The notes under the pieces: model-generated
Told to the model about the DNA's origin: nothing
Database searches by the model: none
The model's input: the letters and a program-made list of their open reading frames with translations, nothing else
From: Bolinopsis microptera
Lineage: Eukaryota; Ctenophora; Tentaculata; Lobata; Bolinopsidae
Assembly (NCBI RefSeq): GCF_026151205.1
Contig: NC_087074.1
Location: forward strand, 15,916,962 to 15,980,961
Reading direction: 5' to 3'
Length of the DNA stretch: 64,000 bases
Position numbers and translations under genes: made by a program
Shown: in pieces, positions 361 to 55,683 of the stretch
Layout: every line of letters begins with the position of its first letter
Position numbering within the stretch: the first letter of the stretch is position 1

Positions 361-569
361 GGGCTTTCGTTTCGAGTTGAACAGTGAACACTGCACTATG
401 AAGCAAAACAGAACTGTTCGAAATTAGCTTTTGCTTAATTTTCTTCTGAATATTCTCCGCTTAGGCAGCTTTCGACTTCGTCTTTTCTTAGCAGCATCAC
501 AAATCCTCAAAATATAGAATTTGTTCTGAACCAATGATTACTGAATATCTTTTTTACCTCTCAGGTATT
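361..569 (+). promoter_or_regulatory. Conserved upstream / 5' UTR block of receptor A
   Basis: This stretch recurs ahead of receptors B and C (5823-6032 and 11779-12009) with high similarity, including the shared phrase CAGCATCACAAATCCTCAA and the run GAACCAATGATTACTG. In B and C it ends with TTTACCTCTCAG or TTTACCTCTAAG just before the ATG, which resembles a splice acceptor, so part may be a 5' UTR intron. In A that last part is shortened. The promoter itself is not delimited. Conservation could simply reflect recent duplication. Confidence 0.45.
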
Positions 570-3500
570 ATGGCTGGGCTCCATTATATCCTCTTTTTCA
601 TTTTATACTCGATTGGGCAACCATACAAAGTTGGTCTCTTGTTGAACTCCGAAGAGCAGGATGGGTCCAATGCCATCAAAAGCCTCGCCCAATACACCAT
701 CTCCAAACTAAACAAATCCAACACCAAACTGCAACTGGTAGAACGATACCATGACTCAACATACTTAAACGTCATGAACAATGTTTGTGAACTTATCGAC
801 GAAAATGTTGTGGCTATCATATCTGGGTCAGATTCAACTTTGACGGCGATTCAGGTGAATATGGCAAATCAGTTTCATGTTCCACTTGTTGCTGCGGTGG
901 CTACAAATCCTTTCCTCGAACCCGTCTCTAAGGAAAACTTTGAACTGAGACTTTCACCATCAGACGTATTTCAGAGTCAAGCTATATTCGACTTGTTGAA
1001 GGAGTACAATTGGTACCAATTTTCGATTCTGGCATCAGCAGACGATTACGGGATCAACAGTATCGTGCATTTGCAATATCTGGCCTCGCAAGATGACAAC
1101 TTCAGCATTAGGGACGTCCAACATTTTGATGTAAGAAAAGATCTGTCAGATTCAGAAAATTCTTCTTTCTTTGAAAAAGAGCTTCAACTGATCAAAGATT
1201 CGATAGCCAAGGTTATTGTTCTAAATTGTGATGGAAAGTTCGCCAAAATCATATTCAGGTGAGATATCTTTAAGTTTGCTCGTCTGTAGCATTTTTTGTG
1301 GCTCATAGCTGGCTGGTAGATTTAAACCTAACTTTGCAATATTTATCGAATAACTGGATTTAAATTAAGCACAATTATCTATTTTCAGGGAAGCCGAAAG
1401 AAAGGGCTTGATGGACGAATCATTTGTCTGGATAACGACAGATGCGATCACATCTAAACCAGAAACAATGGCCTATGATGACTTGTCCTACCCTTCCTTC
1501 TACCAAGGATTGATAGGAACGCTGCCTCACTATGGAAAAGGTTCCAAACAATACAAAGATCTGGCAGATGGATACATTATGACTGGTGGTAAATCCTCGG
1601 ATTTGCACATGTCATCTGTAAAAGTTTCTATGGGTCTAGAAATCGTCCATTTCTCTCTAAAAGAGCTTGATGAGGGTGAATGGGACAACTCCCCATCAGT
1701 TAGCTGTAAAACACCTTCTTACTGGGTTGGTGGTGAAGAACTCTTCAGCAAGATGGATGAGAATTTCCAAAACGGAGCATATGACAATTCTGGGGTGGTC
1801 ATTCCAACGTATGACATATTGAACTTCCAAGAAAAGGGCTTCGAGAAGATTGGGAAATGGGAAAATTCCAGTGGTCTTGTAAACCTTGGTAAGGATGAAA
1901 CAATATTACGGTGGGTCGACAGAAAAGATGTTCTATTTAGTGGCAATAAGTATTCACCTCCCAGTGGAATAGGGAACACGCTCACTGGCTATCACCTTCG
2001 AATCGGCATAGTTCCAGAACCACCGATTGCATATTTCGATGAGAAGTGTGGTAATAATTCAAGTCCTGACTGCTGGTACGGCTGGAATCCCGATATCATC
2101 AAAAAACTCCAGGAAGACCTAAACTTCACGTACGAATATGTTCAGCCGGCAGATAATAAATATGGTGGCTTCAACAAGGTAACAAAAGAGTGGAATGGAA
2201 TGATTAGAGACATTCTGGACAGAAAAACAGACTTGACCATAGCTCTGTCAATAAATACTGAGCGGTCAAAATACATTGACTACACTGCTTCTTTCTATGA
2301 GGATCAGGCTGCGTTCATTGTTCATACTAAGACATCCAAAAGTTCATCAAACATGTTCTTTTTCCTGGAACCCTTCGAGTTATCAGTGTGGATAAGTATC
2401 ATTGGCCTAATCCTGGTGATCGCTCTTTTAACCACATTTTTCAGTAAGTTCTCTCCTTTCGGAAAATATGGCAGGACTATCCACGCTATGCAGAGTTGTG
2501 CATGCGCCGAATGTGTGCTGAGGAGAGAAATCAAAGTGGCTAAGAAGTGTAGGTTTGTTGATACGAAGACATATAGTTGTTTGGTGGAGAAAGTAGAGGA
2601 GGACGATGAGATGAACGAGCTCTCTTACTACAACTCAACATGGCTTATTGGAACAGGTTTGATTTTAGGCTACTTATTCTATAATTCAACATGATCAGCG
2701 AACTTCAAGTTTGTAATTGAGGTATTGATAATTAATTCAGCACGATCGTGCGCGTGGATCACTATAATGGGTATAATATTGTTTTTAGCATATCATTATG
2801 ATGTAAACTGTGTTTCAGGTTTTGTTCTGCAAGGGACTGACACACTTCCTACTGCACCGTCTGGACGCTTCCTTCTTTTCATGTGGTGGCTCTTCATCAT
2901 GATTCTCACCTCAATGTACACGGCAAATCTAACTGCTCATCTGACGCTGGATCGTTCTACCGCAACAATTACCAAACTAGACGATCTGTTGAACCAGGGA
3001 GACTATAAGTGGGGACTTATAAATGATCGTAATCTTCAGACCATGATGTCTGATCATGAGGATGAAACATACAACAAAATAGTTAGCAGTGGAGTTGGAT
3101 TGGAAAGTTTAGATGAAGGCATCACAAGAGTTAAAAAAGGCGATTTTGTCTTCATTGATGACAGCTCTGTGCTTACTTTCAATTTCAGGGGAGACTGTCA
3201 AGCTGCACTTACGAAAACAGGCAAATTCAACAACCAGTGGGCATTGGGGACACAAGTAAATTCACCATATTCAGCAGTTATCAACAGCATGTTCCTTCAA
3301 TACCGTGAGAGGGGTTGGTTTACCACCAAATTTGACGAATGGTATAACTCCGCTGATGAAAACATACAGACTTGCTCTTCTTCGGTTGGTAGTGATGCTA
3401 AATTTGGTATCCCCATTTTAGGGGGACTGTTCCTTATTTTAGGTGTTGGAGCTGTAATAGCCTTTGTCACTGTCTTCCTTGAAATACTCTACGTTTCTCA

Positions 3501-3681
3501 CCTAGACAGTATAGAAAAGGGGCAGAGTATCTGGCAATGTTTGTGGAAAAGAATAGTATATAAGTATCGTGAAGTCACCGAAGAGTGGTTTGATAGAAGT
3601 CACAAAAGAGTTGAAGGCCATGATTCAAACGGGTTTGATCGAAACCATAAGGAAGAGGTTATTTCTAACACTTCTATCTGA
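570..3681 (+). CDS. Ionotropic glutamate receptor A (three exons, about 939 aa)
   Basis: Exons 570-1258, 1389-2656 and 2819-3681 join in frame (phases 2 and 1) to 2,820 coding bases. I start at the ATG at 570, matching B and C; an in-frame ATG at 534 also exists. Order of domains: a short signal peptide, a periplasmic-binding-like amino-terminal domain (to about residue 400), ligand-binding half S1 with GYHLRIGIV and the arginine of TERSKYIDY, membrane segment M1 (LSVWISIIGLILVIALL), a cysteine-containing M1-M2 loop, pore loop with QGTDTLPT, M3 with MYTANLTAHLT, S2 with FVFIDDSSVL, and M4 near the C-terminus. The second intron cuts the pore loop. The tail ends TSI, a possible class I PDZ ligand. 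The family is known to form tetrameric ligand-gated cation channels at the plasma membrane; the ligand here is not known. It is the first gene of a four-gene tandem array. Confidence 0.93.
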
Positions 3682-4780
3682 AATATTAAAAGTGTTATCA
3701 TACGCTGAAAGTTATGCTTACAATATAGACCTCAAAGGAGTATGAGTTTGTGAAGATAGAAGAACTAGCAAAGTTTGAAGAAACACTCTACGTTCCTTGT
3801 AAGAGTATAGACGAGTGTTGACACGACATTTTGTCTAATGTTGCCACCAATATAATTGATTCTGCCTCCCACTGGGAGGAAGCCGAATTGTTGGCGGATC
3901 ATAACAGTATAACATTTAAGGTTAGATGTCAAAGCAGTTAATCTTATCTATATTTAGGTGAAGCCCTTTAGATGAAAATATTTATATTTTTAAATTTAAA
4001 TTTTTGAGTGTGTAGTTGTAAACCTAATTAGATTCATATTATTTAGAGTAATTTAGTTAAAAAAGATAATTATTGTTTTAAAATAGCTTGAGTCACCTCA
4101 AGAATTGTTTTGCTGAGTAAATAAACTTACTTAATATCAAGAAATAATAAAACATGACTGAAAATTATTCGCTTCACTCAGCTGGGGTTCGTGAAGTAAA
4201 TATTCCGATCGCATATCATGACAGAAATTTATGCAAATTATGAAAATGTTACCGATTCTCTAGCTTTAAAAAGAGTTTTTGATTGGAATATATATAATAA
4301 AAATATCTGTTCATGTAGGAAGTATTAAGATGTAATGACAATGCTGACAATAAATACTTTTTCACAGTATGCCTTTCAATTTATAAAGAGCTAACATCTT
4401 TGCACTGCAATGGTACTGCTCTTGTGTGTGTGCGTGCACTTCAAGGATTAGAATGTGCAAGTTTACGATAGAGGATGGGAAGTCTTTTATCACGCCAAAT
4501 GTTTGCATGCTGATGATTTCAAGGTTCGATCTCAACCAAAATAAAATGTATATAGACTTTACCAATGCTTGGATAGTGACGCAGCGAAGCAAATAAATAA
4601 TGTGTAACCTTGATATATATATCTATAAATAATGTGTAACCTTGACAGATATGGCAAATAGTGCGCACCTGCCCAAAACTTTGTATGTGCTGCAAATTTG
4701 GTGACAGAAAATGCCGTTATTAAGCTTATATTAACTATTTGCCGAGTTTGCAGCCTTTAGGTGTGCCTGTATGTGGTTAT
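3682..4780. other. 3' flank of receptor A and intergenic DNA
   Basis: The first few hundred bases resemble the 3' flank of receptor C (from 15174), including CAATATAGACCTCAAAGGAGTATGAG split between lines, so this is duplicated 3' UTR or flank. Around 4370-4530 there is a block similar to 16030-16160 (CACTGCAATGGTA then GCTCTTGT). I see no gene. Confidence 0.5.
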
Positions 4781-6032: not shown

Positions 6033-9000
6033 ATGACTGGGCTCCGTTATATCCTCTTTTTTATAGTAACCTCGATTGGGCAACCATACAAAGTTGGTCT
6101 CTTGTTGAACTCCGAAGAGCAGGATGAGTCCAATGCCATCAAAAGCCTCGCCCAATACACCATCTCCAAACTAAACAAATCCAACACCAAACTGCAACTG
6201 GTAGAACGATACCATGACTCAGTATACCTGAATCTCATGACTAGTGTTTGTGAACTTATCGATGAAAATGTTGTGGCTATCATATCTGGGTCCGATTCAA
6301 CTTTAACGGCGATTCAGGTGAATATGGCAAATCAGTTTCATGTTCCACTTGTTGCTGCGGTGGCTACAAATCCTTTCCTCGAACCCGTCTCTAAGGAAAA
6401 CTTTGAACTGGCACTTTCACCATCAGACGTATATCAGAGTCAAGCTATATTCGACTTGTTGAAGGAGTACAATTGGTACCAATTCTCAATTCTGGCATCG
6501 GCAGACGATTACGGGATCAACAGCATCGTGAACTTGCAATATCTGGCCTCACAAGATGACAACTTCAGCATTAGGGACATCCAACATTTTGATGTAAGAA
6601 AGGATCTTTCAGATTCAGAAAATTCTTCTTTCTTTGAAAAAGAGCTTCAACTGATCAAAGATTCAATAGTTAAGGTTATTGTCCTAAACTGTGACGGAAA
6701 GTTCGCCAAAATCATATTCAGGTGAGCTATATTTAAGTTTATTTGCTTTAAAAAAATCCTTTATCCGAAACTCAGAATCTATTAGCTGGCTTGTAGATTT
6801 AAATTTAACTTTGAAATTTAACCATATCATGTAATCTTACTTGGTTTTACCGAATTAATTTTCAGGGAAGCCGAAAGAAAGGGCTTGATGGACGAATCAT
6901 TTGTCTGGATAACGACAGATGCGATCACATCTAAACCAGAAACAATGGCCTATGATGACTTGTCCTACCCTTCCTTCTATCAAGGATTGATAGGAACGCT
7001 GCCTCACTATGGAAAAGGTTCCACAAAATACAACGATCTGGCAAATGGATACATTATGACTGGGGGTAGATCCTCGGATTTGCGCATGTCATCTGTAAAA
7101 GTTTCTATGGGTCTAGAAATCGTCCATTTCTCTCTAAAAGAGCTTGATGAAGGTGAATGGGACAACTCCCCATTAGTTAGCTGTAAAACACCTTCTTACT
7201 GGGTCGGTGGTGATGAACTCTTCAGCAAATTGGATGAAAATTTCCAAAACGGAACATATGACAATTCTGGGGTGGTCATTCCAACGTATGACATACTGAA
7301 CTTCCAAGAAAAAGGCTTTGAGAAGGTTGGGAAATGGGAAAAGTCCAGGGGTCTTGTTAACCTTGGTAAGGATGAAACAATATCACAGTGGGTTGACAGA
7401 AAAGATGTTCTATTTAGTGGCAATAAGTACTCACCTCCCAGTGGAATAGGGAACACGCTCACCGGCTATCACCTTCGAATTGGCATAGTTACAGATCCAC
7501 CGATTGCATATTTCGACGAGAAGTGTGGCAATAATTCTAGTCCTGACTGCTGGTACGGCTGGAATCCTGATATCTTCCAAAAACTTCAGGAAGACCTAAA
7601 CTTTACGTACGAATATGTTCAGCCGGCAGATAATAAATTTGGTGGCTTGAACAAAGAAACAAAAGAATGGAATGGAATGATTAGAGACATTCTGGACAGA
7701 AAAACAGACTTGACCATAACTATATCAATAAGTACTGAGCGGTCCAAATACATCGACTACACTGCGTCTGTATATGAGGATCAGGCTGCTTTCGTTCTCC
7801 ATACTAGGGCCACCAAAAGTTCATCGAACTTGTTCTTTTTCCTGGAACCCTTCGACTTATTAGTTTGGATAAGCATCATTGGCCTAATCCTGGTGATCGC
7901 TCTTTTGACCACATTTTTCAGTAAGTTCTCTCCTTTCGGGAAATATGGCAGGACTGTCCACGCTATGCAGAGTTGTGCATGCGCCAAATGTGTGCGAAGG
8001 AGAGAAATAAAAGTGGCTAAGAAGTGTAGGTTTGTTGACACGAAGGAATATAGTTGTTTGGTGGAGAAAGTGGAGGAGGACGATGGGGTGAACGAGCTCT
8101 CTTACTACAACTCAACATGGCTTATTGGAACAGGTTCGATTGTAGAATAGTCAACCCAAATTGTTATAACATCTAGAACTCAACTCTGGAGTAATAGATT
8201 GTTCTATTGTATAACCTTCTTTTATAAATTGCAGTAAACTTGAGCTAAATTATAACTCTAGCAATGATCATGATGCTTAATTCAACACGACCGCTTATAT
8301 GATATATTTTTTGTCTCAGGTTTTGTTCTGCAGGGGACTGACAAATTTCCTACAGCACCGTCTGGTCGCTTCCTTCTTTTCATGTGGTGGCTCTTCATCA
8401 TGATTCTCACCTCGATGTACACGGCAAATCTAACTGCTCATCTGACGCTGGATCGTTCTACTGCAACAATTACCAAACTAGACGATCTGTTGAACCAGGG
8501 AGACTATAAGTGGGGACTTTTAAATGATCGTTTTATTCAGAACATGATGTCTGATCATGATGATGAAACATACAACAAAATTGTTAGCAGTGGAGTCGGA
8601 TTGGAAAGTTTAGATGAAGGCATTGCAAGAGTTAAAAAAGGTGGTTTTGTCTTCATTGATGAAAGCTCTGTACTCACGTATAATTTCAAGGGAGACTGTG
8701 AAGCTGCACTTACGAAAACAGGCAAGTTTAACAACCAGTGGGCATTGGGGACACAAGTAAATTCACCATATTCAGCAGTTATCAACAGCATGTTCCTACA
8801 ATACCGTGAGAGGGGTTGGTTAACCACCAAATTTGACGAATGGTATAACTCCGCCGATGAAAACGCACCGACTTGTTCTTCTTCGGTCGGCAGTGATACT
8901 AAATTTGGAATTCCGATTTTAGCAGGACTGTTCCTTATTTTAGGTGCTGGAGCTGTAATAGCCTTTGTCACTGTGATCTTTGAAATACTGTACGTTTCCC

Positions 9001-12009: not shown

Positions 12010-15000
12010 ATGGCGGGGCTCCGTTATATCCTCTTTTTTATTCTATCCTCGATTGGGCAACCATACAAAGTTGGTCTCTTGTTGAACTCCGAAGAGCAGG
12101 ATGAGTCCAATGCCATCAAAAGCCTCGCCCAATACACCATCTCAAAACTTAACAAATCCAACACCAAACTGCAACTGATAGAACGATACCATGACTCGAT
12201 ATACCTGAACCTCATGAACAGTGTTTGTGAACTTATTGATGAAAATGTTGTAGCTATCATATCTTGGTCCGATTCAACTTTAACGGCGATTCAGGTGAAT
12301 TTGGCAAATCAGTTTCATGTTCCACTTGTTGCTGCAGTGGATACGAACCCATTCATTGAATCTCACTCTAAGGAAAACTTTGAACTGAGACTTTCACCAT
12401 CAGACGTATATCAGGGTCAAGCTATATTCGACTTGTTGAAGGAGTACAATTGGTACCAATTCTCAATTCTGGCATCGGCAGACGATTACGGGATTAACAG
12501 CATCGTGAACTTGCAATATCTGGCCTCGCAAGATGACAACTTCAGCATTAGGGACATCCAACATTTTGATGTAAGAAAGGATCTGTCAGATTCAGAAAAT
12601 TCTTCTTTGTTTGAAAAAGAGCTTCAACTGATCAAAGATTCAATAGTTAAGGTTATTGTGCTAAATTGCGATGGAAAGTTCGCAAAAATAATATTCAGGT
12701 GAGCTATCTTTAAGTTTATTTGCTCGTCTGTAGCATTCTTTGTGAATCCTTTATCTGAAACACAGAGTCTATCAGCTGGCTGTTAGATCTAAACTTAACT
12801 TCGCAATTGAACCACATAATATAATGTTACTTGGTTTGATCGAATACCTGGACTTAAATTAAGCAAAATCATTTATTTTCAGGGAAGCCGAAAGAAAGGG
12901 CTTGATGGACGAATCATTTGTCTGGATAACGACAGATGCGATCACATCTAAACCAGAAACAATGGCCTATGATGACTTGTCCTACCCTTCTTTCTATCAA
13001 GGATTGTTAGGAACGCTGCCTCACTATGGAAAAGGTTCCACACAATACAACGATCTGGCAAATGCATACATTATGAGTGGTGGTAGATCCTCGGATTTGC
13101 GCATGTCATCTGTAAAAGTTTCTATGGGTCTAGAAATCGTCCATTTCTCTCTAAAAGAGCTTGATGAAGGTGAATGGGACAACTCCCCATCAGTTAGAAT
13201 TAGCTGTAAAACACCTTCTTACTGGGTTGGTGGTGAAGAACTCTTCAGCAAATTGGATGAAAATTTCCAAAACGGAACATATGACAATTCTGGGGTGGTC
13301 ATTCCAACGTATGACATACTGAACTTCCAAGAAAAAGGCTTTGAGAAGGTTGGAAAATGGGAAAAGTCCAGGGGTCTTGTTAACCTTGGTAAGGATGAAA
13401 CAATATCACGGTGGGTTGAAAGAAAAGATGTTCTATTTAGTGGCAATAAGTACTCACCTCCCAGTGGAATAGGGAACACGCTCACCGGCTATCACCTTCG
13501 AATTGGCATAGTTACAGATCCACCGATTGCGTATTTCGACGAGAAGTGTGGTAATAATTCTAGTCCTGACTGCTGGTACGGCTGGAATCCTGATATCTTC
13601 CAAAAACTTCAGGAAGACCTAAACTTTACGTACGAATATGTTCAGCCGGCAGATAATAAATTTGGTGGCTTGAACAAAGAAACAAAAGAATGGAATGGAA
13701 TGATTAGAGACATTCTGGACAGAAAAACAGACTTGACCATAACTATATCAATAAGTACTGAGCGGTCCAAATACATCGACTACACTGCATCTATCTATGA
13801 GGATCAGGCTGCTTTCGTTCTTCATACTAAGGCCTCCAAAAGTTCATCGAACTTGTTCTTTTTCCTGGAACCCTTCGACTTATTAGTTTGGATAAGCATC
13901 ATTGGCCTAATCCTGGTGATCGCTCTTTTGACCACATTTTTCAGTAAGTTCTCTCCTTTCGGAAAATATGGCAGGACTATCCACGCTATGCAGAGTTGTG
14001 TATGCGCCAAATGTGTGCTAAGGAGAGAAATAAAAGTGGCTAAGAAGTGTAGATTTGTTGACACGAAGGAATATAGTTGTTTGGTGGAGAAAGTGGAGGA
14101 GGACGATGGGGTGAACGAGCTCTCTTACTACAACTCAACATGGCTTATTGGAACAGGTTCGATTGTAGAATACTCAACTCATAACTTTTATAAAATCTAG
14201 AACTCAACTCTGGAGAAATAGTTTGTTCTATTGTATACTTGATTGTAACTCTAGCAATGATCATGATGCTTAATTCAACACGACCGCTTATGATATATTT
14301 TTTGTCCCAGGTTTTGTTCTGCAGGGGACTGACAAATTTCCTACAGCACCGTCTGGTCGCTTCCTTCTTTTCATGTGGTGGCTCTTCATCATGATTCTCA
14401 CCTCAATGTACACGGCAAATCTAACTGCTCATCTGACGCTGGATCGTTCTACCGCAAAAATTACCAAACTAGACGATCTGTTGAACCAGGGAGACTATAA
14501 GTGGGGACTTTTAAATGATCGTTTTATTCAGAACATGATGTCTGATCATGATGATGAAACATACAACAAAATTGTTAGCAGTGGAGTCGGATCGGAAAGT
14601 TTAGATGAAGGCATCACAAGAGTTAAAAAAGGTGGTTTTGTCTTCATTGATGAAGGCTCTGTGCTCACGTACAATTTCAGGGGAGACTGCGAAGCTGCAC
14701 TTACGAAAACAGGCAAATTCAACAACCAGTGGGCTTTAGGAACACAAGTAAATTCACCATATTCAGCAGTTATCAACAACATGTTTCTACAATACCGTGA
14801 GAGGGGTTGGTTAACCACCAAATTTGACGAATGGTATAACTCTGCTGATGAGAACATGCCGACTTGTTCTTCTTCGGTTGGCAATGATACTAAATTCGGA
14901 ATTCCGATTTTAGCGGGACTGTTCCTTATTTTAGGTGTTGGAGCTGTAATAGCCTTTGTCACGGTGTTATTTGAAATACTTTACGTTTCCTGCCTAGACA

Positions 15001-17442: not shown

Positions 17443-20400
17443 ATGCTGATTAGATATATTCTCGTCCTCAAACTTGCATTTCATTCCATCGCAGAACTCA
17501 TCCCCTTCAAAGTAGGCCTCCTTCTCGACTCTAACGATGAAGCGGAATCAAATGCGATTAAAAGACTGGCTGACTTCACAATCTCTACCATGTACTGGAC
17601 CTTACAGTTGGAGGTCCAGTATCACGACCAGACGTATCTCAGTATGATGGGAGGAGTTTGTTCCCTCATTGACCAGGATGTCGCTGCTATTATATCTGCT
17701 TCAGACTCGTCCTCGACTGCTATACAATCGAACCTGATTGGTCAATTTCAAATACCTTTTATCGCAGCAGTTGCTACCAATCCGTTCATGGAAACGCCGT
17801 ATGTGAACAATATGGAGCTACGACTCTCCCCGACCGATGTTCATCAAAGTGAGGCTGTATATGCACTGTTGAAGGAGTTTTTATGGTTTGACTTTTCCAT
17901 TCTTGCGTCTTCTGACTCTTTTGGAATAAGAAGCACTGTTCGATTACAGTATCTCGCATCGCAAGACATAGAATTCCACATTAAAGACATTCAGAACTTT
18001 GATACAAAGAGAGACTTGTCTCAACCTTCGGACGTCAAGGTTTTTTCAAAAGAACTGGAAGTGATCAAAGATTCTCTTGTCAGAGTTATCGTACTAAGCT
18101 GCCATGGACGGTTTGCCAAACGGATTTTCAGGTAAGAATCTCATTAGCTTTTCTTGTAATTATGTTTTTCTAGTGCTCTAAAATGACATTGATAAGTTGT
18201 ACATAGTAAGTTTCTAGTAGTTACTAACCTTAAATTATCAAAATAATGATTAAGTATATGTTCTAAAATATGGCGTAGTTATCAAATATGCAGTTTGGCT
18301 AACACAATGCTTTCCACATTTCCAATAACTTCAGTTAAACGTTAACCAGTGCCACTATCCTACAGTGAAGCAAAAGAAATGGGATTGATGGCTAAAGATT
18401 ACATATGGATCACACTAGATGGGGTGACAGCACGACCAGACACCCTGACACATGGTGACAGATCGTATCTGTCATATTATAAAGGAATATTCGGCACCAC
18501 TCCCCACTATGGTAAAGACTCTGGTGAATACAGCGATCTAAAGGATGCATACGTGTTGAATGGAGGGCTTTCAACAGATTTAACGAGGGCTTCTGTCAAA
18601 GTTTCAGAAGGTCTCAAACTTATTCATTTTTCGCTTCTTCGACTCGGAGATATTGAAAGAGAAACATTGAAGGAGGTTAGATGTGGCAAGTTAAACACCT
18701 GGGGTGCTGGTCAACAATTGTACTCCAATATGAAGAAAGATTTTTCTGGAAGGCAGATTAGCAGTATAACTGGAATTGAACATTTTCCGACTTACGAAAT
18801 TATGAATTTCAAGTCTGATGGTTTTGAAAGAGTTGGGTTCTGGACATATGAAACTGGGCTTCTTGATTCAGTCGGCCAAAAGGTAAAATGGCGAAGCAGA
18901 AAAGACCTCACTTTTATTGGTAGTGATACACATCCACCAACTGGACTCGGCAGCTTAGAAGGGTACCACCTACGGATCGGCATCGTAGAATATCCACCTA
19001 CCACTTATTTTGTTAACTCTTTAGAGTGCGAGAAAGATCCATCTCGACCAAGGTGCTGGTATGGCTGGAGTCCCGAAATCTTCACGAGACTTGCCGAAGA
19101 CCTTAAATTTACATACGACTATGCAGTAGCACCTACAAAAATGGTTGGTGGCACCTCCGAATCAGATTCCTGGAGCGGATCCGGAACATTAATGGGAGAT
19201 ATCATAGACAGAAAAACTGACATCACAATACCTATATCCATGACATATGACCGTGCAAAGCATGTCGACTTCACAGCTCCACTCCATGAAGACTCTGCAG
19301 CTTTGGCCATGTATCCTGCCATTGGAAGTTTCGCTTCATCAGCAAACATATTCTTTTTTCTTGACCCTTTTGAGATGTCTGTCTGGGGAACTATCTTACT
19401 ACTTATATTTGGTATTGCCATTCTTACTAATTTCTTTAGTAAATTTTCCCCCCTCGGAACATATGGTGAGAAACTCCATGCTATGAAAACTTGCCCTTGC
19501 AAAAAATGTGTCCTGAGGAGAAGGGTAAAAAAGGTTGTCAAGTGCCAGGTAGATGAGGGTGAGGAGGACGATGGTATGAACGACCTCTCTATCTACAACT
19601 CAAACTGGCTCATTGCAGCAGGTTTAGTAAATATAGAGGAATGTTGAGCAAATTTTATTGTTGTTTGTAAACTCAGTCAAAAACGATTGTTTACCCGTTA
19701 GGAGTAAGGTTCGATATTTTATTAATTCAGACAAAATAAGCAGTTCCTAAGCTGAATTGCTTTATTTTCAGGGTTCGTGTTACAAGGGGTAGATGTTCTC
19801 CCGACTTCTCCATCTGGAAGAATTCTACTTTTGACGTGGTGGCTCTTCATAATGATCATATCTGCCATGTACACAGCCAATCTTACCGCCAGCTTGACAG
19901 TGGAATCAGCGGTAAAGACAATTAACAATTTCAATGAGTTGCTTTCGCAAGAATACTACGAATGGGGTGCCCTTGAAGGCGATTTACTATCAAGTCAATT
20001 AAAGAACAGCACAGAAGAAGAGCATAGGGATATATACACTAGAGGTAAAAAGATCATTACAACAGATGTGGCAGCGAAAAAAATAAAGGAGGGACGATTT
20101 GTGTTCGTTGGGCCAAGGACTCTCCTAGAGTTCGTACTCAAGGATGACTGCGAAAAAATAGTGGTCGATACGACATCGTATCAAAACCAGTGGGCTTTCG
20201 CAGTGCCATTTCATGCACCATATCTTAAGCCGATAAATAAAATGTTCATTACCTACACAGAAGAAGGATATTTCACTCAAGGATTCGAGAGGTGGAAAAG
20301 TGGTGAAGAAGGAGGTGAGACATGTCCTGTGGAGTCTGACGAGATCGGGAGTGACACAACTTTCACTCCTCAGCTCCTAGCCGGACTCTTCATCATTCTG

Positions 20401-21473: not shown

Positions 21474-24400
21474 ATGTCTGAGCGGCTCTCCTCAAATAAC
21501 TTTCTCTCCTCCTCGGAGCTGAAAGTTAAAAACAAAACACGGGTCTCATATAACAATCAAAAAAGGTAATCTACGTTGCTTCAGAGTTCAGACGGTTATT
21601 TGGTAGAAATTGTCCAATTCATTGCGCTTTTGATAGGTACTGTTTACCGCTCGAGCTGGCAGTCAACTACCGCGCTGTTACCATGGTTACCACAACTACC
21701 GCGCTGTTACCATGGTCACCACAACTACCGCGCTGTTACCATGGTTACCACAACTACATACAATGCTGTTACCATGGTTACCACAACTACCGCACTGTTA
21801 CCATGGTTACCACAACTACCGCGCTGTTACCATGGTTACCACAACTACCGCGCTGTTACCATGGTTACCACAACTACCGCGCTGTTACCATGGTTACCAC
21901 AACTACCGCGCTGTTACCATGGTTACCAAAACTACCGTGCTGTTACCATGGTTATGGAATACTCTGACATTCCAATTCAGTGTGTCTTTAGAAGTTCATA
22001 AAAATGCAGCTGATATTGGCTCATATGTCATTCCACGGATAATTTTGTAGGCCCTATTGAGTATTGGTAGATTATTGGAAAATCACATTGAAGTTTCTTT
22101 CCTTTTAGAATAATTTTATAAATAATTGCAGGACCGAACATGAGAGTTCTCGAGAGGAACTGAACCAATCTGTAAACAAACAAGAAGCTCAGGAGTTGAA
22201 TATCAGAAAAGTTAATGAGCGTTTGGAGAATGAAAAGGTAAGTGTTGCCTTAGATTTTTAATACAATTGAATCATTGTACAAGAACGATTTTCGTCTTAT
22301 TAGATACGATTTTTTATTCATTTGTATACTATTTATTATAATGTGTACTTTAATACGAGGAGATGTTTTCATGATATCTTTTCTTATTTTTGCTTTCGGT
22401 TACTAATACTAATATCTAAAGATAAAGTGGAGCGGAAGAGAATGTCGATATTTGAATGAGATACGTGATATTGAGTCCAGAAATCAAGAACTCAAGGTAT
22501 GCAACAGCATGTCTACTACGTTATAAAGCAGTTCTATTGTTCAGATCGTGGTGGTCTTAATAATATGTTAAATACTCAAGCTCAGGCATTCCTAATGTTA
22601 ACTATTATGAAAACCAGAATCAAATTCATTAATTTCTGTTCCATACAAATAACAACTGTGGTAGAACTATGGTCGGTCACCCAGAACATTGCTCTGTGGT
22701 ATCGTATTTGCACATTTTACTTATTAAATGTCTAGTTATATATCCTTTACAGTATACTCCGTTATTTTAACAGGTCAAATTAGAGGAGTTGACGATGCAC
22801 TACAAAACAGAGATTCTAGAATTGTCCTCAAGATTGGGCAACAAGATCTCTGCTACCGAGGTGTCTGGAACTTTCAGCAGTGATATCCAATATATTACCC
22901 ACCTTTTCAACGATTGTAGCACTCGTTTAAATAGATCACTTTTGAAATACCACCAGTCTATGAGTATGAACTAACCTAATAATTGAATCTAAGGAGGAGA
23001 ACAGTCAGAAGATGACCGCTATGGAAGAGAGTATAAGGTTATTGGAGGAAGTTCAGACAGATTACCAGGAAGTGATCAGATACGCTGTCCTGATCATACA
23101 ACAGTCATTGTCACGACTCACTCCCAGCAGCCACTATAACCCATGTTCCCATATCAGGGTCAGAGCAGTCATTTCATTATTGTCATATTGTTATCTAACA
23201 TGGCCCCAACAATCACTCAACAATCATATCGAGCTTTAACATATTTAACATATTTAACATATTTAACATATTTAACATATTTAACATATTTAACATATTT
23301 AACGTATTTAACATATTCAACATATTTAACATATTTAACATATTTAACATATTTAACATACTTAACATATTTAACATATTTAACATATTTAACGTATTTA
23401 ACATATTTAACATATTTAACATATTTAACGTATTTAACATATTTAACGTATTTAACATATTTAACATATTTAACATATTTAACGTATTTAATATATTCAA
23501 CATATTTAACATATTTAACATATTTAACATATTTAACATATTTAACATATTCAACATATTTAACATATTTAACGTATTTAACATATTTAACGTATTTAAC
23601 ATATTTAACGTATTTAACATATTTAACATATTTAACGTATTCAACATATTTAACGTATTTAACATATTTAACATATTTAACGTATTCAACATATTTAACG
23701 TATTTAACATATTTAACGTATTTAACATATTTAACATATTTAACATATTTAACGTATTTAACATATTCAACATATTTAACATATTTAACATATTTAACAT
23801 ATTTAACATATTCAACATATTTAACATATTTAACATATTTAACATATTTAACATATTTAACATATTTAACATATTTAACATATTTAACATATTTAACATA
23901 TTTAACATATTTAACATATTTAACATATTTAACATATTTAACATATTTAACATATTTAACATATTTAACATATTTAACATATTTAACATATTTAACATAT
24001 TTAACATATTTAACATATTTAACATATTTAACATATTTAACATATTTAACATATTTAACATATTTAACATATTTAACATATTTAACATATTTAACATATT
24101 TAACATATTTAACATATTTAACATATTTAACATATTTAACATATTTAACATATTTAACATATTTAACATATCACAGTGGGCTACCATGCTAGCATAGGCC
24201 TAAAATCGACTTTCTTAAATTTCTTTGAAAATAAGCTTTCCTTATTGTAAAACGCTAGCCCGATTTCATGCAAGAAACCGTAATTAAAAACTTTGCAAGA
24301 TGCCAAAATGGCGTCGCGTGAAAAAATAGCATTTTTCACTGTCAAGAAATTTTGCCTTTTTTAGCCAAAAATTGCCTAATATTTATTATTTCGGGCTAAA

Positions 24401-27400
24401 ATGCCTGATCAAGGCAGTTTTTAATAATTGAAATATAGTATAGTACTTAAGAATACTCAGCCATCTAAAAAAAACTGTGTGACTTTAACATTTTCACCTG
24501 ATTTTTGACCGCGCCTTTTTTATGGCGTGTATTTTAGGCAATTTTTGGGGTATTTAACGACAGAAATCGTTGTTGGTTTGCAATAGTTCGGTATAATGCA
24601 TGGTATCATCAGAAAGCTTAGACAATTCCCTATCAGATGCAATAAGAATCACTTTGGGAACTTTTGGGCAACTCTGTTTACAAAATTAAGAAACTCAAAA
24701 ATTGGGTAAAATTTGCTGCATTTTTAGATAATTTATGAGCTCAATTTTGCTATTAAATTGACATATTTTAGTTATTCTCCATGTTTGTGGCATTTTTTGC
24801 ATCCTAGACCAGATGCATATGGATGAAAAATCAAAATATCACAATTATTATAGTTAAAATTGATAAAAATCCAAAAAATCGTGATTTTAAACGAAATTTT
24901 TGAAAATAACAGGAACAATTTTGGTGTTTCAGAAAATTTTGGTCATATAAATGGGCACAACTTTTGTTCTGATCAATATTTTTTCATAATTCAAAAAGAT
25001 TCGAGTTCCTAAGATAGCTGTCCTTCGTTTACAGTTCATAAAAGAGCTTTAAAATTGATTAAACCTCTAAAAAAACAACTTTTCCTGGGATCAGCCTCCT
25101 ATTTTTGGACTACAAGATTGCTCAAAATCGGCCCAAAAATTTTTTCTGAGACATTTTCGGCCCTGTAAATGATTGGAATCGTATTTTTGTACCCAAATTA
25201 CCTTAGAAACAAAGTTAGGGGCATGTGTGGTGGTCTAAAATACCCTATGCTAGCATGACCCCCACTCACAGCCCACTGTGCATATTTAACATATTTAACA
25301 TATTTAACATATTTAACATATTTAACATATTTAACATATTTAACATATTTAACATATTTAACATATTTAACATATTTAACATGCTACATTTCTTCATCCC
25401 CTGTAAAATACAGCTAAAAACCAAACCACGTGTGAAACATATTGTTACATATTGTGTCCCTGGTGTGAACGTCTAGTTGTTTACTTTACTGTAGAACGTT
25501 CTACAAATGTACTCCTAAGTCCTAGACTTATCCTAGATGTTATCCTTAGATGTTTAAGATTACGAAAACCCATTGACAGAAATGATCCGATTATGAAGGA
25601 GTAATTAATTGTGAGCAGCCAGGGATTGGCTTATCCTGAGCAAGTAGATCAATATCCAACACTGGTGGAAATAAACTGGGATATAACTTCAGACACAGCG
25701 AGGAGGACAACAGGTTAGTAGCACAAATACAGAGCAGATAGCCGCCCTCAACACAGAGCTGGGGCATCTCACTGCTACTTCTGGGCATCTCAATCAGAAG
25801 ATAACACAGGTTAACACAGTTTTAACTCAGTTTTAACACAGACTAAGTACAGATTTTTAAAAGGTCATTTGTGTTTCGTCACACATTCTACTTAGTAATT
25901 TCATTACTAGCAATTGATTTGGAATTTAGCCGTATTTCAAACATACGATATCCTTAAATCACCTTTTTACGGCTTAACAAATCATTTGTCTTATCTTCTT
26001 AAACCATCAGTTAGAGGAAGAAAAAGAGCAGGATGTACAGAGGTATGAAAAGTTAACAGAAGAGAGGAACCAGCTCATCAAAGAGAAAAATGATGTCGAG
26101 ATGTAAGTGGTCAGAACTCAGAATACCATCTCTCAGTTTCCAGAGGTATTCTAACGTTTCGTCAGGAGATGGCTAGTTTGGATTTAATCACCAGTTGGGA
26201 CCTGACTGCTGATTATTAGTTATATTGTTAATAAACTGAGAGATAACTTACAGTACGATTGTTTTTCAGCGAGATGGGAAAGCAGCGGGATGCGTTCAAA
26301 GAGGAAATCCGAACCATGAAAAACGACATGAAGAACAACGAAAATAAACACGAGGTGAGAAGGCGTTAGAGTTAGTTAGATAGTTCCTGTTACAGTAAAA
26401 CCTCAATTTACCTCTCTCCTATTTATTGCGAATCCCGATTTACCGCAGCTGTTTGCTTTCCCCCTAACTTAATATTAAGGTATCTACACGGGTAAAGGTT
26501 AGGAGTTTGATACAACAAATATAACCTGTGTTTAGTAAAAGAAGGACAAGCTTTTCAGGTTTTTATTCCAGAAGGTTTTACATCATGACCCTAAGATATA
26601 ATAATACTTTAGGTATTCTGAAGAAACATGGTATTTCCACGGAATGCACCAAGGCAAGAATGGCATGCCTTTCCTAGAATAGTATCTTGAGTACTGACCA
26701 TCCCCCCTCTTTATATATTATAGTGTATCATTACTCACCGTCTCCCACTTCCCAAAGTTTCTCTTAGCTAGTGAATTTTCTCTATTAAGTATCATGTCCA
26801 TCTGCATCGTTCAGTATATTATAATATTTCTTACTTGCTTACTTTGATTTAACTTTTAATTGCCAATTGCTATCTTAGACTTGATTAATAATTGTACGTC
26901 GTACGAGTGTCTAGTCTATCTTCAATATTACTTTAACCATGATTTCCCTTTAACCAGCGCTATTATGAATCAGTCAAGCTTAAAATACATTCCTGACTCG
27001 GACGTATTTGTCATATTCAAAGGAGCATTCTTCTACCTAGCCCCTCTCACCATACCTTTGAGCGTGATAGTGATGATCCAAAACATTGTCATCTTCGCCA
27101 ACTATTATAAGGACAGAAAGAAGTTGATCCCTAGTTTGTTCATGGGTATTGCCCTGTCTGACATTCTCAGAGCACAAGGAGAGTTGGTACTCTCAATGAT
27201 TAGTATCCTAGCGTACACAGGACTGGTTGAGGTGACTGTTCTTTATAAGAGCTTGGTTTACTACATGCTAACAGCCCTCCCTGGTGTCAACTGGTCCAAG
27301 GTGTTCAATCTAGTGATGACTGTCGTTATCACTGTAAAAGTGGTAAACCCTTTCAGCAGACTCGACAATGATCGTGTTAAGAGAGTGGCGACTTACTTTT

Positions 27401-30400
27401 GTAGCGCTATATTACTGCTTAATATTTTAGATTTAATCGTAGTGATTGTTGTAGAATTCAAACCGAGTTTAGTAAATTTTGATGCGATTATGCATCCTTA
27501 CCTTTATCTTTACTGTTTGCTTGGATTTGTTCTTCCTGGAGGTCTAACAACTGCTAGCTTGTATTGCCTGTCTGACATGTCGGGATGTAGCCATTTGAAG
27601 ACAGAGAGTCAAAGGGCTCTACAAGTAGACTTTTGTGGATCAGTTGCAGCTGTCTTTTTGTTAGGTCCTCCGATATTAGTTCTTGTTTGTATGATAATAC
27701 AGGTCATCTACTTGAGGAGATCTCTACGAGAAGAGGAAGCTACCCTACTGATGCCCAACACTTCCCGCCACGTTTCCATAACAGTCTTCTTTACATCAGT
27801 CCTCTTCTTCATATGTAATACTATGTATGCCTTAGCAGCCGTTGGTTGTATCATCAAAAGGAACTCAATCAAATGGGATAAAATATCGGCAGATATAGGT
27901 GTGATGATAGGATTCACTGAGTTCACTCTGCCTCTAATATACGCAACGTTGTATCCAGTTATATTGATCTGCAGGAAGGAAGAGTTGAGGAGGAGGTATC
28001 TAGAGTACTGGAGAAGAGTTACCTTCTGGTTTAGACATGCTGAGACTGTGGTATTGGACCAATGAACAAAATTGTCCGTTTGAAAACTTTAACAGACCGT
28101 TCACGTTTTACGTGAGCCACTGTCAAGTTTGATCATCTTCTAACAAGTCACTGTCCATGTCAGTGATACTAACAGTGACGCTACTTAGTGCCTACTTCAA
28201 AAGATAGCACTAGTACTGTAGTAATATAGTGCATAACGTTAGATGAAATATGTAACGTTTTATATAATAATAAAGATAAAAATATAGTATGATTAATTGA
28301 TGTGATAATGATGAAACGTGTTGAACAAATAACAATCGATTGGATATATTATGAACATCTACATTCTGCGCCAATATCATCCCCGGTTTTAGAAGCCGTA
28401 AAATGTTTTGTTGGTGCACTTATCACAGTTAGTTACATTTATTTGGCATATGTTTGGCATTCGGACCACCTTCAACGTCACGAGTAGACATATCAGTCAT
28501 CGCAAAATTCTCAATTACAATGATTCGATTTTTTAAATTTAAATTGTGCCTCTACTTTAATTATCGTGTTTGGATTACAATTATGTTTTGTATTTTGTTG
28601 ATATATTTTGAAGATTGTCTAATTTAATCCTACCTTTATTTAAATCGCCTTCAACTCCATGACAATTCATCGTGAAAAACAATGATTGCAAAGAACTCCC
28701 TTTCATGCAAATGGTATGTAACAACTAACATATCGTGACAGCTAGGATATGTCATGTGACAACTAACACTGTCCTTATCAGGTGTTGAGGAAGAAGTTGG
28801 AGGGATCCAGAGAGGAGCTAGCTAAGATGGAACACGAGGTCAGAGGATTACAGACCAGTTTGGCTGATAAAACTAACAGTAACGAGAGGCTTACCGAGGA
28901 AATCGGTACGTTTTCTTAAACTTAATACTTTAAACTAAGTTTTTGTAGTGTGATTTTCGTACTTTATAATTGGATTGTTCCGCATTCAGAAGAGCGCTTA
29001 TTATTAATGTTCAGGAGTTCTAAAAACGGATAATAGTGTGATGAGTCACCAACTGAACGAGCTGAAGACCACATCTCAAGAGCGCTTCACGGAGATTGAA
29101 AACTTAAAGACGAGAATAACGGTCATTCAAGAAGACAACAAGAACATCAGACTGAAATCTGATGAAAGCTTGTCAAAAGTGAAAGAGAAAGAAGTGCTGT
29201 ATAAAGAACTCCTGGATAAGCTCACTGAACTGCAACAGAAACTCCATGGCGATCAGATCAAGGTATTTCTCAGAGATTTTTCGCTGTAGCGCTACACATT
29301 TTAAGCTGTTTCTGAATTTGTGTGAAACCCATTTCAAAGTTTTTAAAAACTCTCGAATACGATGCTACTAATCGAACCTATCGCATCTTTGACATTAGGA
29401 ATTTAGGACGCTTAATTCAAGATGAACCCACAAGTCAGAAGCTAGTGGGTTCCTTCTAATGAGCACAATTTAAGCTATTGTCACAGCGCGCAAAATTATA
29501 AAACGTAACGCGCGAAATTAAAATATTGATAAAAGTTTGACTTTTAAGCACCGACTGCGACAGTAATGTTATATATTATATAATATATAATATAATAGCA
29601 GCCCCGTCGGTCAAGCAGATAGAAATGTATTGACTTACAAACCCAAAAACGTTCGTTATTGATGAGTGATGACTCAACAATGTGATACCAAAGAACTACA
29701 CTGTCCCGTGCTATACTCGCCATTTTAGCACCAGATAGAAATCAATTAAGTTCATCTCTCATGACGACGTGATGAATATACCGAAAATATATTTTTTAAA
29801 CCACATGCTAATTTTAAAAGAATATATTATCTCGCAATGATAGCGGGGGTTAGTTCGATACAATATGGATAACCGACAACTGCATCATAGCTGACTAGTG
29901 AGTCAAACGAGGAATTTATTTCAGCACATCGAAGAGATAAGCGTTGTAAAGGAAGAACTTCAAGAGAAGATTTACTGTCTAGAGAGTGAAATGAAGCAAG
30001 TAAAGTTTGAGCGGGATAACAAAGAGTCTCAAATTGTCGCTCTTAAGGGTCAGATTAGTAAACGGTCTGAAGAGAAGGTGATTATTTTCTTATCTAACAA
30101 TATTTTTCCGTTTCTAATTGTACCTGTCAAAGAATCTTAAAAAAAAAAAAAAAAAACACAGATGGTCCGTTCGAGTAATGTCAGCGGTGGAGACGGTGGT
30201 GACGCCAACTCCAACATATTTAACCCGAAGAAGAAATCATTTGTATCAACAACCATTGCATTAATGATCAGCTTCGCCACATTTAACATCCGTGGGCTCG
30301 GTGTTCAGCAAGATGATAGCCTACATAGTAAACGTGAGTTACTAGGATTAGACTGTGAAAAGTACAATGTCGACATCTGCGCTCTGCAGGAAACTAAAGT

Positions 30401-33400
30401 CACCGAATCAGACAGCCTTGTTTTGCGCAACGGTTTTAACTTGTTTCTGTTCGAGCAGTTGGACAGTCGCCATGGAGGCTTGGGTTTTATAATCAGTCCT
30501 CGCATGATGAACTATGTGGTTTGCTGGAAGTACATCAGTGACCGGGTATGCTATGTCGATATTTGCATCCCCTCACGTAGCGGTACACCCCTACGTTGCA
30601 GGGTGATCAATGCCTACTGTCCACATCAGGGGCTAGTCCGTAAAAATCCAGTTGTTTTGGATAACTTTTATGGGCAGCTAAGAGAGGCCAAGAATGTACC
30701 CTCTAATGTGGAGTTGCAATTTCTGGGTGACTTTAATTCAAAACTGGGTAAATTATCCCTTTCTGATATTGAACAGGGTTTTGGTAGATATATGGGGAAA
30801 TACGGAATGGGAGAAAGGAACGAAAATGGTTCTAGATTACTGGATTTTATCTCAGAAAATAATCTGTTTGCTGTGAACACTAGTTTTATACAACCTAGCA
30901 GACGTGTTACATCATTTACTGGTTGGCGGAAGGATTGGTCGGCTGGTCGGTACAGTAAGAAGACACTGCCTGTATACTCTCAAATAGATTACATACTATG
31001 CCGAAATAGATCTAAGTGTCTTTTGACTCAATCAAGAACTTATGCTGGTACTAAAACATTTTCAGATCATAGACTTGTCATTGCTCGCATCAATTTCAGC
31101 AACATTCATCTTTGTTTCAAACCTAAACAACGTCGTGTTCCTTCTTATAATATATCAGAACTTGTAAGCAACAAAGATATGCAACATAAATATCACTTGG
31201 CCCTTCAAGGCAAGTTCTCAAATTTTGTGACCAGCAACGATCCAAATGCCGACCTTCAAAATCTTATGTCTCATATTCGTGATGCTGCCAATGTTTCCAT
31301 CGGCCCAAAACCTAAAGCTCGCTTGAAACATCACAGCAGTGATGACACTCTCAAAGAGCTTGTTGAAAAGCGTCACGATCTCCGACAGCTACTTAACAAT
31401 AATCAATCTCTTGATCGAACTACATTGAGGTCATCCATCAACCACCTCACTAATAGTATCCAGAAAAGATTAGTTGAAGTGAGGTCTGCTCAAGCTGATC
31501 AGACCTATAGTGATATTACTAACACAAACGATTCAAGGAAAATGTTTGAAGCAGTAAGACATCTTCAGAAAAGTAAACCACCTAATAACTCGATTGGTGT
31601 TCATGATGAAAATGGCTGTTTGATTGCATCTGACGACATGAAAGCTTCTGTTGTTAGAGACTATCTCGAAAAACAGCTGACTCGCAATGAGCAACCTCTC
31701 GAGCCTTTTGAGGGTCTACCACGTGCTCTCAATGTCCCTTTTACTGGAGTTGAAATACATGCAGCCACCTCTAGCTTGAAAAATGGGAGGGCAAATGGTC
31801 CCGATGGAATACCCAACGAGCTTATTAAGTACTCTAATAGTACAGTCCATGAACATTATGCTGGAATCATAAACAGTTGTTTCGAGACACATACTTTCCC
31901 CATTTCCATTGGAGAGGCTACTATAACACCCTTACAGAAGCCTAAAAAACCTATTGGTCCCCTGAAGAATTTACGTCCACTCACCTTGTCCAATGCAGCC
32001 AGAAAAATTCTGTCTATGGCTACTCTTAAAAGGATAGAAGAAAAAGTGAACGCCTTCACTGGTCCATGGCAGTGTGCATATAAACGCGCTCGTTCTTGTG
32101 CTGATATTGTTTGGTGTCAGCGAGTTCTACTGTCAGTTGTCCAAAGGAAGAAATGGGAGTATCATCGCATGGGCATTGATATGTCTAGTGCGTTTGACAC
32201 GATCAAACGCACTACGATTCTTGAACTCCTGAAACTGTGTGGCTGTACTGAGGATGAGCTGAGGATTGTCCGGTTGTTGTTGTCCAACACAAAGCTACGG
32301 GTGAAGGTAAATGGAGTTCTTTCAGCTGAGTTTTTAAGTCTCCTTGGAGCTTTCCAAGGTGACTGTCTATCCGGCTGTCTGTTCACCCTTGTCTTGGCTG
32401 GTGCTTTGAATGAACTTAGATGGACTATAACAATCAGTTTAGATAGGCCGATCCCCCCGATTACTATTGCTGGCCTTCCACTTGACACTGAATATGCTGA
32501 TGATGTTGACTTCAATGATGAAGAGGAAGACAACTTGAGAGCTATTTTGCCCCAGGCAACAGCTATACTCGAGAAATGGAACCTCTTTGTCAATGAAGAC
32601 AAAACGGACTTCACTCATGTTTATTTAGCTAGTACGGGTGAAGTCGACAGTGATGGAAAATTAGTGTCGGGGAATGAAGCATGGAGGAAAAGTATCACTC
32701 TAGGGTCCGTCTTGTGTAGCAAAGCTGATATTCAGCGTCGCATAAACCTGGGATATGCTGCCTTTAACAATTACAAGAAGGCCTGGAGTGATAAACTGCC
32801 CCTAAACAAACGTCTAATACTGTATAATGCCTTAGTCGTATCGGTTCTTATGTACAACTCATCCTGTTGGGCCGTCCCGAAAATATTCCTTGAAAAACTA
32901 GATGTTGTTCACCGCAGACATGTTCGCACTATTTTGAATATAAAGTACCCAGGAGTCATCTCCAACAAAAACTTGTATAAACGCTGCAATGCTGAACCAT
33001 TGTCAGACAAAGTGGCCCGTAGTCGGTGGAGAATGCTAGGACATGTTTTGCGGGGTCCTGTTGACGGACCAGCGTTTTCTTCCCTCATTTTTGCCATCAA
33101 TACACTGGACTTACCAGGGAGAAGAGGAAGACCCCAAAGCAATCTATTCTCGCTGATTGTGCATGATTTATGTAAAAGAAATATTTATTTGAATAATATC
33201 TTTGACCTGCATTATCTCCGTAATTTGAGTTATGACAAGAGATATTGGCGGAAATTGCAATGAAGTTTTTAATATTTAGTTTTTGTTTTAGGGAAAGATT
33301 AGACTTGGGCGTTGTTTTTTTAACTATCCCTTGTTTAGAACTTTGATTTTTTTTTTTTTTTTTTAGATGTAGCCTACTGGGTCTACAAAAACTATCGTTT

Positions 33401-55178: not shown

Positions 55179-55389
55179 AATGAAGAGGCTTGCATATAAT
55201 GAACATGTTGACATGGGTGCAGAGTTGAGTCTGTACGGAACCTAGTAGTTTCAGTTCCTTGTTTAACTTGCCGTACAGCAAGGACATCCACTACTTTAGC
55301 CCGGCGAGGCACATAACTCACTCTACAACTCCATGTCAAATGTTTCATATATTCATATATAGCCATGTAACTATCTGGAAAGTTTAAAG

Positions 55390-55683
55390 TCAGGGTCAGG
55401 ATCAGGATCAGGATCAGGGTCAGGGTCAGGGTCAGGGTCAGGGAGGGTCAGGGTCAGGGTCAGGGTCAGGGTCAGGGTCAGGGTCAGGGTCAGGGTCAGG
55501 GTCAGGGTCAGGGTCAGGGTCAGGGTCAGGGTCAGGGTCAGGGTCAGGGTCAGGGTCAGGGTCAGGGTCAGGGTCAGGGTCAGGGTCAGGGTCAGGGTCA
55601 GGGTCAGGGTCAGGGTCAGGGTCAGGGTCAGGGTCAGGGTCAGGGTCAGGGTCAGGGTCAGGGTCAGGGTCAGGGTCAGGGTT
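55390..55683. repeat. (TCAGGG)n hexamer array, telomere-variant-like
   Basis: About 48 units of the hexamer TCAGGG, with a few TCAGGA units at the left and one AGGG slip near 55443. TCAGGG differs from the animal telomere unit TTAGGG by one base, and the array ends with one GGGTTA. Frames on both strands are open because of the period and are not genes. The G triplets every six bases make G-quadruplexes likely. Confidence 0.95.

Follow-up and report, generated by a model that had tools for sequence, protein, structure and literature searches.

In a 64,000-nucleotide stretch of the Bolinopsis microptera genome, hereafter the window (G000:C3:15916962-15980961 of a 264.65-Mb assembly), we find a 1,109-bp DNA transposon at positions 24172-25280 (plus strand), which its end pair, its genomic copies and its target site duplications (TSDs) lead us to assign, with high confidence, to the non-autonomous members of the Transib superfamily, presumably mobilised in trans by the RAG1-like aspartate-aspartate-glutamate (DDE) transposase of a longer relative. 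A 3,927-bp element at the locus L052 is the probable autonomous partner. Together they make up a new non-autonomous family with a probable autonomous partner, within a superfamily that is already known.

The element is bounded by perfect 11-bp terminal inverted repeats (TIRs), CACAGTGGGCT on the left (24172-24182, plus strand) and AGCCCACTGTG on the right (25270-25280, where CACAGTGGGCT reads on the minus strand). The first seven letters, CACAGTG, match the consensus heptamer of the recombination signal sequence (RSS) exactly at both ends, a correspondence that an earlier note on this DNA had pointed out; a convincing nonamer, however, is missing at both 12 and 23 bp. Free of mismatches, CACAGTGGGCT occurs at only two places in the window, the two ends of the element; with up to three mismatches it is not enriched (88 matches against a shuffle mean of 97), so the evidence lies in the exact pair. 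Further in, ATGCTAGCAT likewise occurs mismatch-free only twice in the window (24186-24195 and 25247-25256), both copies lying within a perfect 14-bp inverted pair, CATGCTAGCATAGG, whose left block (24185-24198, plus strand) stands 2 bp after the terminal 11-mer and whose right, inverted block (25244-25257, minus strand) stands 12 bp from its own, giving a short-spacer and a long-spacer end. The longest open reading frame wholly within the element, counted from an ATG, GTG or TTG start, encodes 54 amino acids.

On either side lies the duplication CATAT (24167-24171 and 25281-25285), and beyond it the insertion is embedded in a 9-bp satellite, (TTTAACATA)n, which occupies 23235-24171 on the left and 25281-25382 on the right, both on the plus strand; removing the element together with one CATAT lets the satellite continue in register. 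The length, inverted ends, inner palindromic block and duplication all lie exactly at the coordinates given in the earlier note. In a repeat array the duplication of the window copy may be ambiguous when taken alone, and it is the full-length copies elsewhere in the genome, 30 out of 30, that settle its length as 5 bp.

Those copies came from a DNA search with the window element, in which 40 of 63 candidates were scored and for which all copy counts are lower bounds. There are at least 40 copies, and 30 of the 40 span element positions 1-1109 at 94-100% identity. In every one of these 30 an exact 5-bp direct repeat stands just outside CACAGTG...CACTGTG, and the 30 target 5-mers are all different (29 read from one-piece alignments, plus CATAA in copy L030). 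The ten copies without one end in the copy alignment were left out of this count; five of them (L036-L040) were refetched at greater length as L054-L058, along with L049-L053. Among these ten longer stretches both ends are found in eight (L049 and L052-L058) and not in L050 or L051, and an exact 5-bp TSD flanks seven of the eight two-ended elements, L052 included; the border was placed by a 3-base alignment extension in L053 and in L049, the latter having a decayed right end. No other duplication length appeared among the copies examined. The duplicated letters have a higher GC content than their surroundings (72 of 145 bases, compared with 37.0% in the flanks; p = 0.002, 29 copies), the same bias that is reported for the TSDs of Transib, RAG and ProtoRAG (PMC8289069).

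The earlier note had proposed looking for a RAG1-like or Transib transposase beside same-ended full-length copies, and the genome holds both. L052 (G000:C3:4782163-4790162) was found through searches with both ends and inspection of 8-kb stretches around odd copies; its element, at 501-4427 of the locus (G000:C3:4782663-4786589), is flanked by the TSD TATCT and agrees with the window element at 98.6% identity over the left 499 bp and at 91.9% over the right 37 bp. Two long frames on its minus strand stay open for 374 and 406 amino acids, and the 3.9-kb element has no further open frame above 119 amino acids. The second frame matches Pfam RAG1 (PF12940) at 7.3e-11, with 41.3 bits against a cut-off of 25, and its best solved relatives are the HzTransib transposase of Helicoverpa zea (6pqn, 1.1e-11), ProtoRAG RAG1L (6b40, 6e-8) and vertebrate RAG1 (3jbw, 1.4e-5); the first frame has HzTransib as its sole solved match at E <= 1 (2e-7) and no Pfam family at E <= 10. 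A 136-nt stretch with GT/AG borders (L052 2562-2427) joins the two frames in phase and is predicted to be an intron, a reading supported by C2, where a related frame with 61% identity to the L052 transposase stays open straight across that point. Spliced as predicted, the L052 transposase would have 740 amino acids. The C2 frame itself matches HzTransib at 1.3e-18 (70 bits) and ProtoRAG RAG1L with 63 bits.

In the L052 protein the D of GFDGSGG, the D of AMDRKAV and the E of GGIEACN, about 102 and 266 residues apart, align with the D/D/E of HzTransib or RAG1, positions that we take to be the catalytic D600, D708 and E962 of RAG1. The C terminus, CKHCDMRGHSRRWC, fits Cx2Cx3GHx4C, the motif described for the tail of invertebrate RAG1L (PMC7204232) and named CTT1 (formerly CTT*) in an account that also places it in Subgroup I Transibs (PMC9435367). 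Against the L052 protein the HzTransib chain is gapped in the last third, and it has a 7-residue gap approximately where the RAG2-binding alpha11-alpha12 region, kept in Subgroup I Transibs (PMC9435367), would lie. A resemblance to the nonamer-binding domain seen by eye is not claimed, a phmmer search with the 126-aa stretch having returned no match at E <= 10.

Used as genome queries, the two L052 frames find 38 and 20 matching stretches, none above 75% identity besides L052 itself, and Pfam RAG1 matches at two places in the genome. In the scanned ranges of the C2 transposase locus (L079), none of the CAC...GTG pairs reaches both 9 of 14 end letters and 4 of 5 TSD letters. On C6 (G000:C6:5382032-5383024; L080:4322-5485) there is a 388-aa open frame, 30% identical to the L052 transposase and with no Pfam match at E <= 10, in which a partial C-terminal CxxC..GH motif can be made out by eye; it may represent a further, distantly related lineage of Transibs, or else a domesticated copy.

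A RAG1-core-like DDE transposase as the only gene (in L052), a 5-bp TSD and TIRs that begin with CAC and contain an RSS-like heptamer are features that the family shares with Transibs, for which 5-bp TSDs and RSS-like ends are established (PMC8355894, PMC4411706). The earlier note had pointed to a RAG-like or a Transib transposase in this genome; L052, with similar ends, a 5-bp TSD and a gene of RAG1/Transib type, bears this out, and Transib fits better, since no RAG2-like gene was found, in a RAG2 search that had no positive control. The CTT1 tail and the asymmetric TIRs are features reported for Subgroup I Transibs; the asymmetry is not diagnostic by itself, because Subgroup II is reported to include some asymmetric members too (PMC9435367). 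By the established chemistry of HzTransib and RAG, the RAG1-like transposase would nick at CAC, excise the element through hairpinned flanks and join its ends to the target with a 5-bp stagger, and we infer that the L052 element or a sister of it supplies this transposase in trans.

Several observations weigh against this assignment. At its right end L052 has just 37 bp (92%) in common with the window element, whose positions 500-1072 it lacks altogether. A transposase copy with these ends was found once only, in L052, and the enzyme may really come from a sister element that has been lost or is missing from the assembly. The structure prediction for the C2 transposase (mean predicted local distance difference test score, pLDDT, 41.6) is too poor for a fold comparison with HzTransib. 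Among the copies, L053, 91% identical, lacks an exact 5-bp TSD.

If the mobilising element instead belonged to a RAG-like family of ProtoRAG type, encoding both RAG1L and RAG2L, the L052 copy would have lost its RAG2L. The transposase does have the Cx2Cx3GHx4C tail of invertebrate RAG1L (PMC7204232), and the C2 frame scores nearly equally against ProtoRAG RAG1L and HzTransib (63 and 70 bits). The same tail together with asymmetric ends is, however, reported for Subgroup I Transibs (PMC9435367), HzTransib is the best single solved match of each L052 frame, the 3.9-kb element has no other open frame above 119 amino acids, and Pfam RAG2 has no match in the genome at E <= 0.1, a weak negative given that the control genomes gave none either. 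We consider this origin very improbable.

Slightly less probable again is that L052 carries its RAG1-like gene as a passenger, within another element nested in a copy of a family that uses some other type of transposase. Unrelated insertions are indeed nested in L054, L055 and L056, but these three copies pick up again, with a short overlap, where they were interrupted, and L052 does not: positions 500-1072 are missing, and its right end has diverged and has spacer letters of its own. Upstream of the gene, about 110 bp of noncoding sequence recur at the C2 transposase locus with 77% conservation and so belong with the gene, and CAC ends with a 5-bp TSD are what a Transib transposase would be expected to leave. 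A hAT element (with an 8-bp TSD and a hAT transposase) or a CACTA (EnSpm) element (with a CACTA end and a 2-4-bp TSD), its ends resembling the RSS heptamer by chance, is scarcely credible, for although CAGTG, the end read two bases further in, would fit the hAT end rule and CAC also begins CACTA ends, the 30 full-length copies have their 5-bp TSD directly outside CACAGTG, not one of 8 or 2-4 bp, and RAG1 is the sole Pfam match of L052's two long frames, with no hAT or CACTA domain. The two outcomes that the earlier note had named as refuting its reading, a relative encoding such a transposase and copies with a different duplication length, thus did not appear. A hAT border placed at CAGTG was rejected, the implied 8-mers being different (acatatca and tgcatatt) where the 5-bp repeat is exact in all full-length copies.

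Within the Transib assignment, the ends show a regular spacing pattern. Both consist of CACAGTGGGCT followed by CATGCTAGCATAGG, but the spacer between them measures 2 bp in one case and 12 bp in the other. Searched genome-wide as CACAGTGGGCT-N(0-25)-ATGCTAGCAT, the pattern gives 89 hits, 45 with a 3-bp gap and 44 with a 13-bp gap and none of any other length; the reversed control gives 0 hits. Spacer length is kept while the letters vary: there are two short spacers (ACC and GGG) and three long ones, and L052 has its own long spacer, GCGCGGGGGGGTC. Measured from the heptamer, the palindromic block begins after 7 bp at the short end and after 17 bp at the long one, a difference of roughly one helical turn, which recalls the 12/23 RSSs. 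The RSS nonamer ACAAAAACC is not present at 12 or 23 bp, where 2-4 of its 9 letters match at either distance. The best match to it in the first 60 bp of each end of the window element, 6 of 9 letters at 20 and 49 bp on the left and at 45 bp on the right, was read as chance, 53 offsets having been available in AT-rich DNA.

Since the spacers differ in this way, we propose that synapsis would probably bring together one short-spacer and one long-spacer end. It is possible, if on balance doubtful, that the palindromic second block replaces the RSS nonamer, and that a RAG1-like transposase working without RAG2 requires a short end to be paired with a long one, in parallel to the 12/23 rule. What counts against reading too much into the pattern is that the family is young and has just two short and three long spacer sequences, for which reason the 89 hits are not independent. 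If the proposal holds, a comb jelly, member of what may be the first animal lineage to have branched off, would have a spacing rule of its own. The family could help to tell if unequal ends are already required by a RAG1-like transposase that works without RAG2. Among transposons, Transibs are regarded as the nearest relatives of RAG1, and the origin of the 12/23 asymmetry is still argued (PMC8355894, PMC8289069, PMC7204232). To that question the family brings insertions that are young and clean, an exact CACAGTG, spacers that differ by one helical turn and, within the same genome, a RAG1-like gene that seems to be open.

To judge from alignments with the two, the 1,109-bp unit looks chimeric, an L052-type left end being joined near position 500 to the right half of a second type: positions 1-499 (window 24172-24670, plus strand) follow the left end of L052 (98.6%), and positions 502-1109 (window 24673-25280, plus strand) follow a second 1.1-kb non-autonomous type represented by L057 (96.7%) and L058 (96.2%). 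Per 50-bp block, positions 502-1109 are 94-100% identical to L057, whereas over the left half the similarity between L057 and the window element is only 61%, with a mean of 55% and a maximum of 56% in 20 shuffles. Interrupted gap repair or template switching may have formed such a unit. The L057 copy of the second type (G000:C7:11537789-11545788, element at 6392-7500, TSD CATTT) sits between frames that by eye resemble arrays of C2H2 zinc fingers, and it may interrupt such a gene.

The family looks to have spread recently and in a burst, since divergence from the majority sequence has a median of only 0.7% over 29 copies (maximum 4.4%); of the 149 variable columns among them, 91 are singletons. 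Two observations on individual copies may be added. L054, L055 and L056 contain insertions of 2,157, 1,063 and 1,881 bp, which share no similarity beyond 20 bases and whose frames resemble reverse transcriptases by eye; all three lie in one 18-bp tract (element positions 584-601, window 24755-24772), and three independent insertions within 18 of 1,109 bp suggest that the tract is a preferred insertion target. L035 (G000:C6:19158607) and L042 (C6:19140635), 18 kb apart, have alike flanks on both sides and share the 5-mer TCTTG, which looks like a segmental duplication with a single insertion behind both; their identities to the window element, 86% for L035 and 99% for L042, fit poorly with a simple recent duplication.

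How far the family extends known ground is limited by what has been published, since the superfamily is known, has been described from ctenophores and includes Transibs with asymmetric TIRs (PMC9435367). Tao et al. 2022 report six ctenophore Transib-like proteins and describe Subgroup I Transibs as having asymmetric TIRs and a CTT1 tail; its ctenophore members MleTransib_3931 and PbaTransib_8175 likewise combine a single RAG1-like transposase, CTT1, asymmetric TIRs and a ctenophore host (PMC9435367). The comparison with these two is one of descriptions, TIR letters and spacers aside, and what the window family adds is a multi-copy non-autonomous set with its TSDs; the Mnemiopsis Transib of that paper may be a close relative of the window family, or even identical with it. 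Among the openly accessible papers that were consulted on Transibs in Bolinopsis, Mnemiopsis and ctenophores, and on Transibs with a CACAGTG heptamer, none was recognised as describing the window family.

HzTransib, the best solved match of both L052 frames, has CAC-starting ends and 5-bp TSDs according to the literature; it and most Transib families are reported to have symmetric TIRs (PMC8289069), whereas those of the window family are asymmetric. Amphioxus ProtoRAG and vertebrate RAG1/RAG2 have a related catalytic protein, and CACAGTG is identical to the RSS consensus (PMC8289069). Unlike them, the window family has neither a RAG2 partner that we could find nor a nonamer at 12 or 23 bp. Anopheles Transibs with an N in their names are taken here, after Repbase usage, to be non-autonomous. 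Transib5 of Drosophila and Transib2 and N1-N3 of Anopheles are likewise described as Transibs with unequal end spacing (PMC8355894); as reported there, they have a heptamer and a nonamer-like block at about 12/23 bp, whereas the window family has its palindrome 7 and 17 bp from the heptamer.

Further tandem arrays in the window consist of a 119-bp unit repeated 15.8 times (49459-51339), a 178/341-bp unit (53288-54602) and GTCAGG repeated 49 times (55389-55682), and a single 1,033-aa open frame at 30162-33263 resembles, by eye, a complete non-LTR (non-long terminal repeat) retrotransposon endonuclease/reverse transcriptase. Four tandem ionotropic glutamate receptor genes (1999-2328, 7473-7796, 13496-13822 and 19024-19302) are among at least 32 Lig_chan-Glu_bd matches in the genome. 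For COX1 the assembly gave no match. In keeping with a ctenophore host, the receptor at 6885-8147 best matches ML032222a, presumably a Mnemiopsis receptor (102 bits), then 4zdm, which we take to be a Pleurobrachia receptor (90 bits), with the rest at 73 bits or less; for a second receptor (L084) ML032222a alone stands clear, with 132 bits against 95 for 4zdm and 93 for a kainate receptor.

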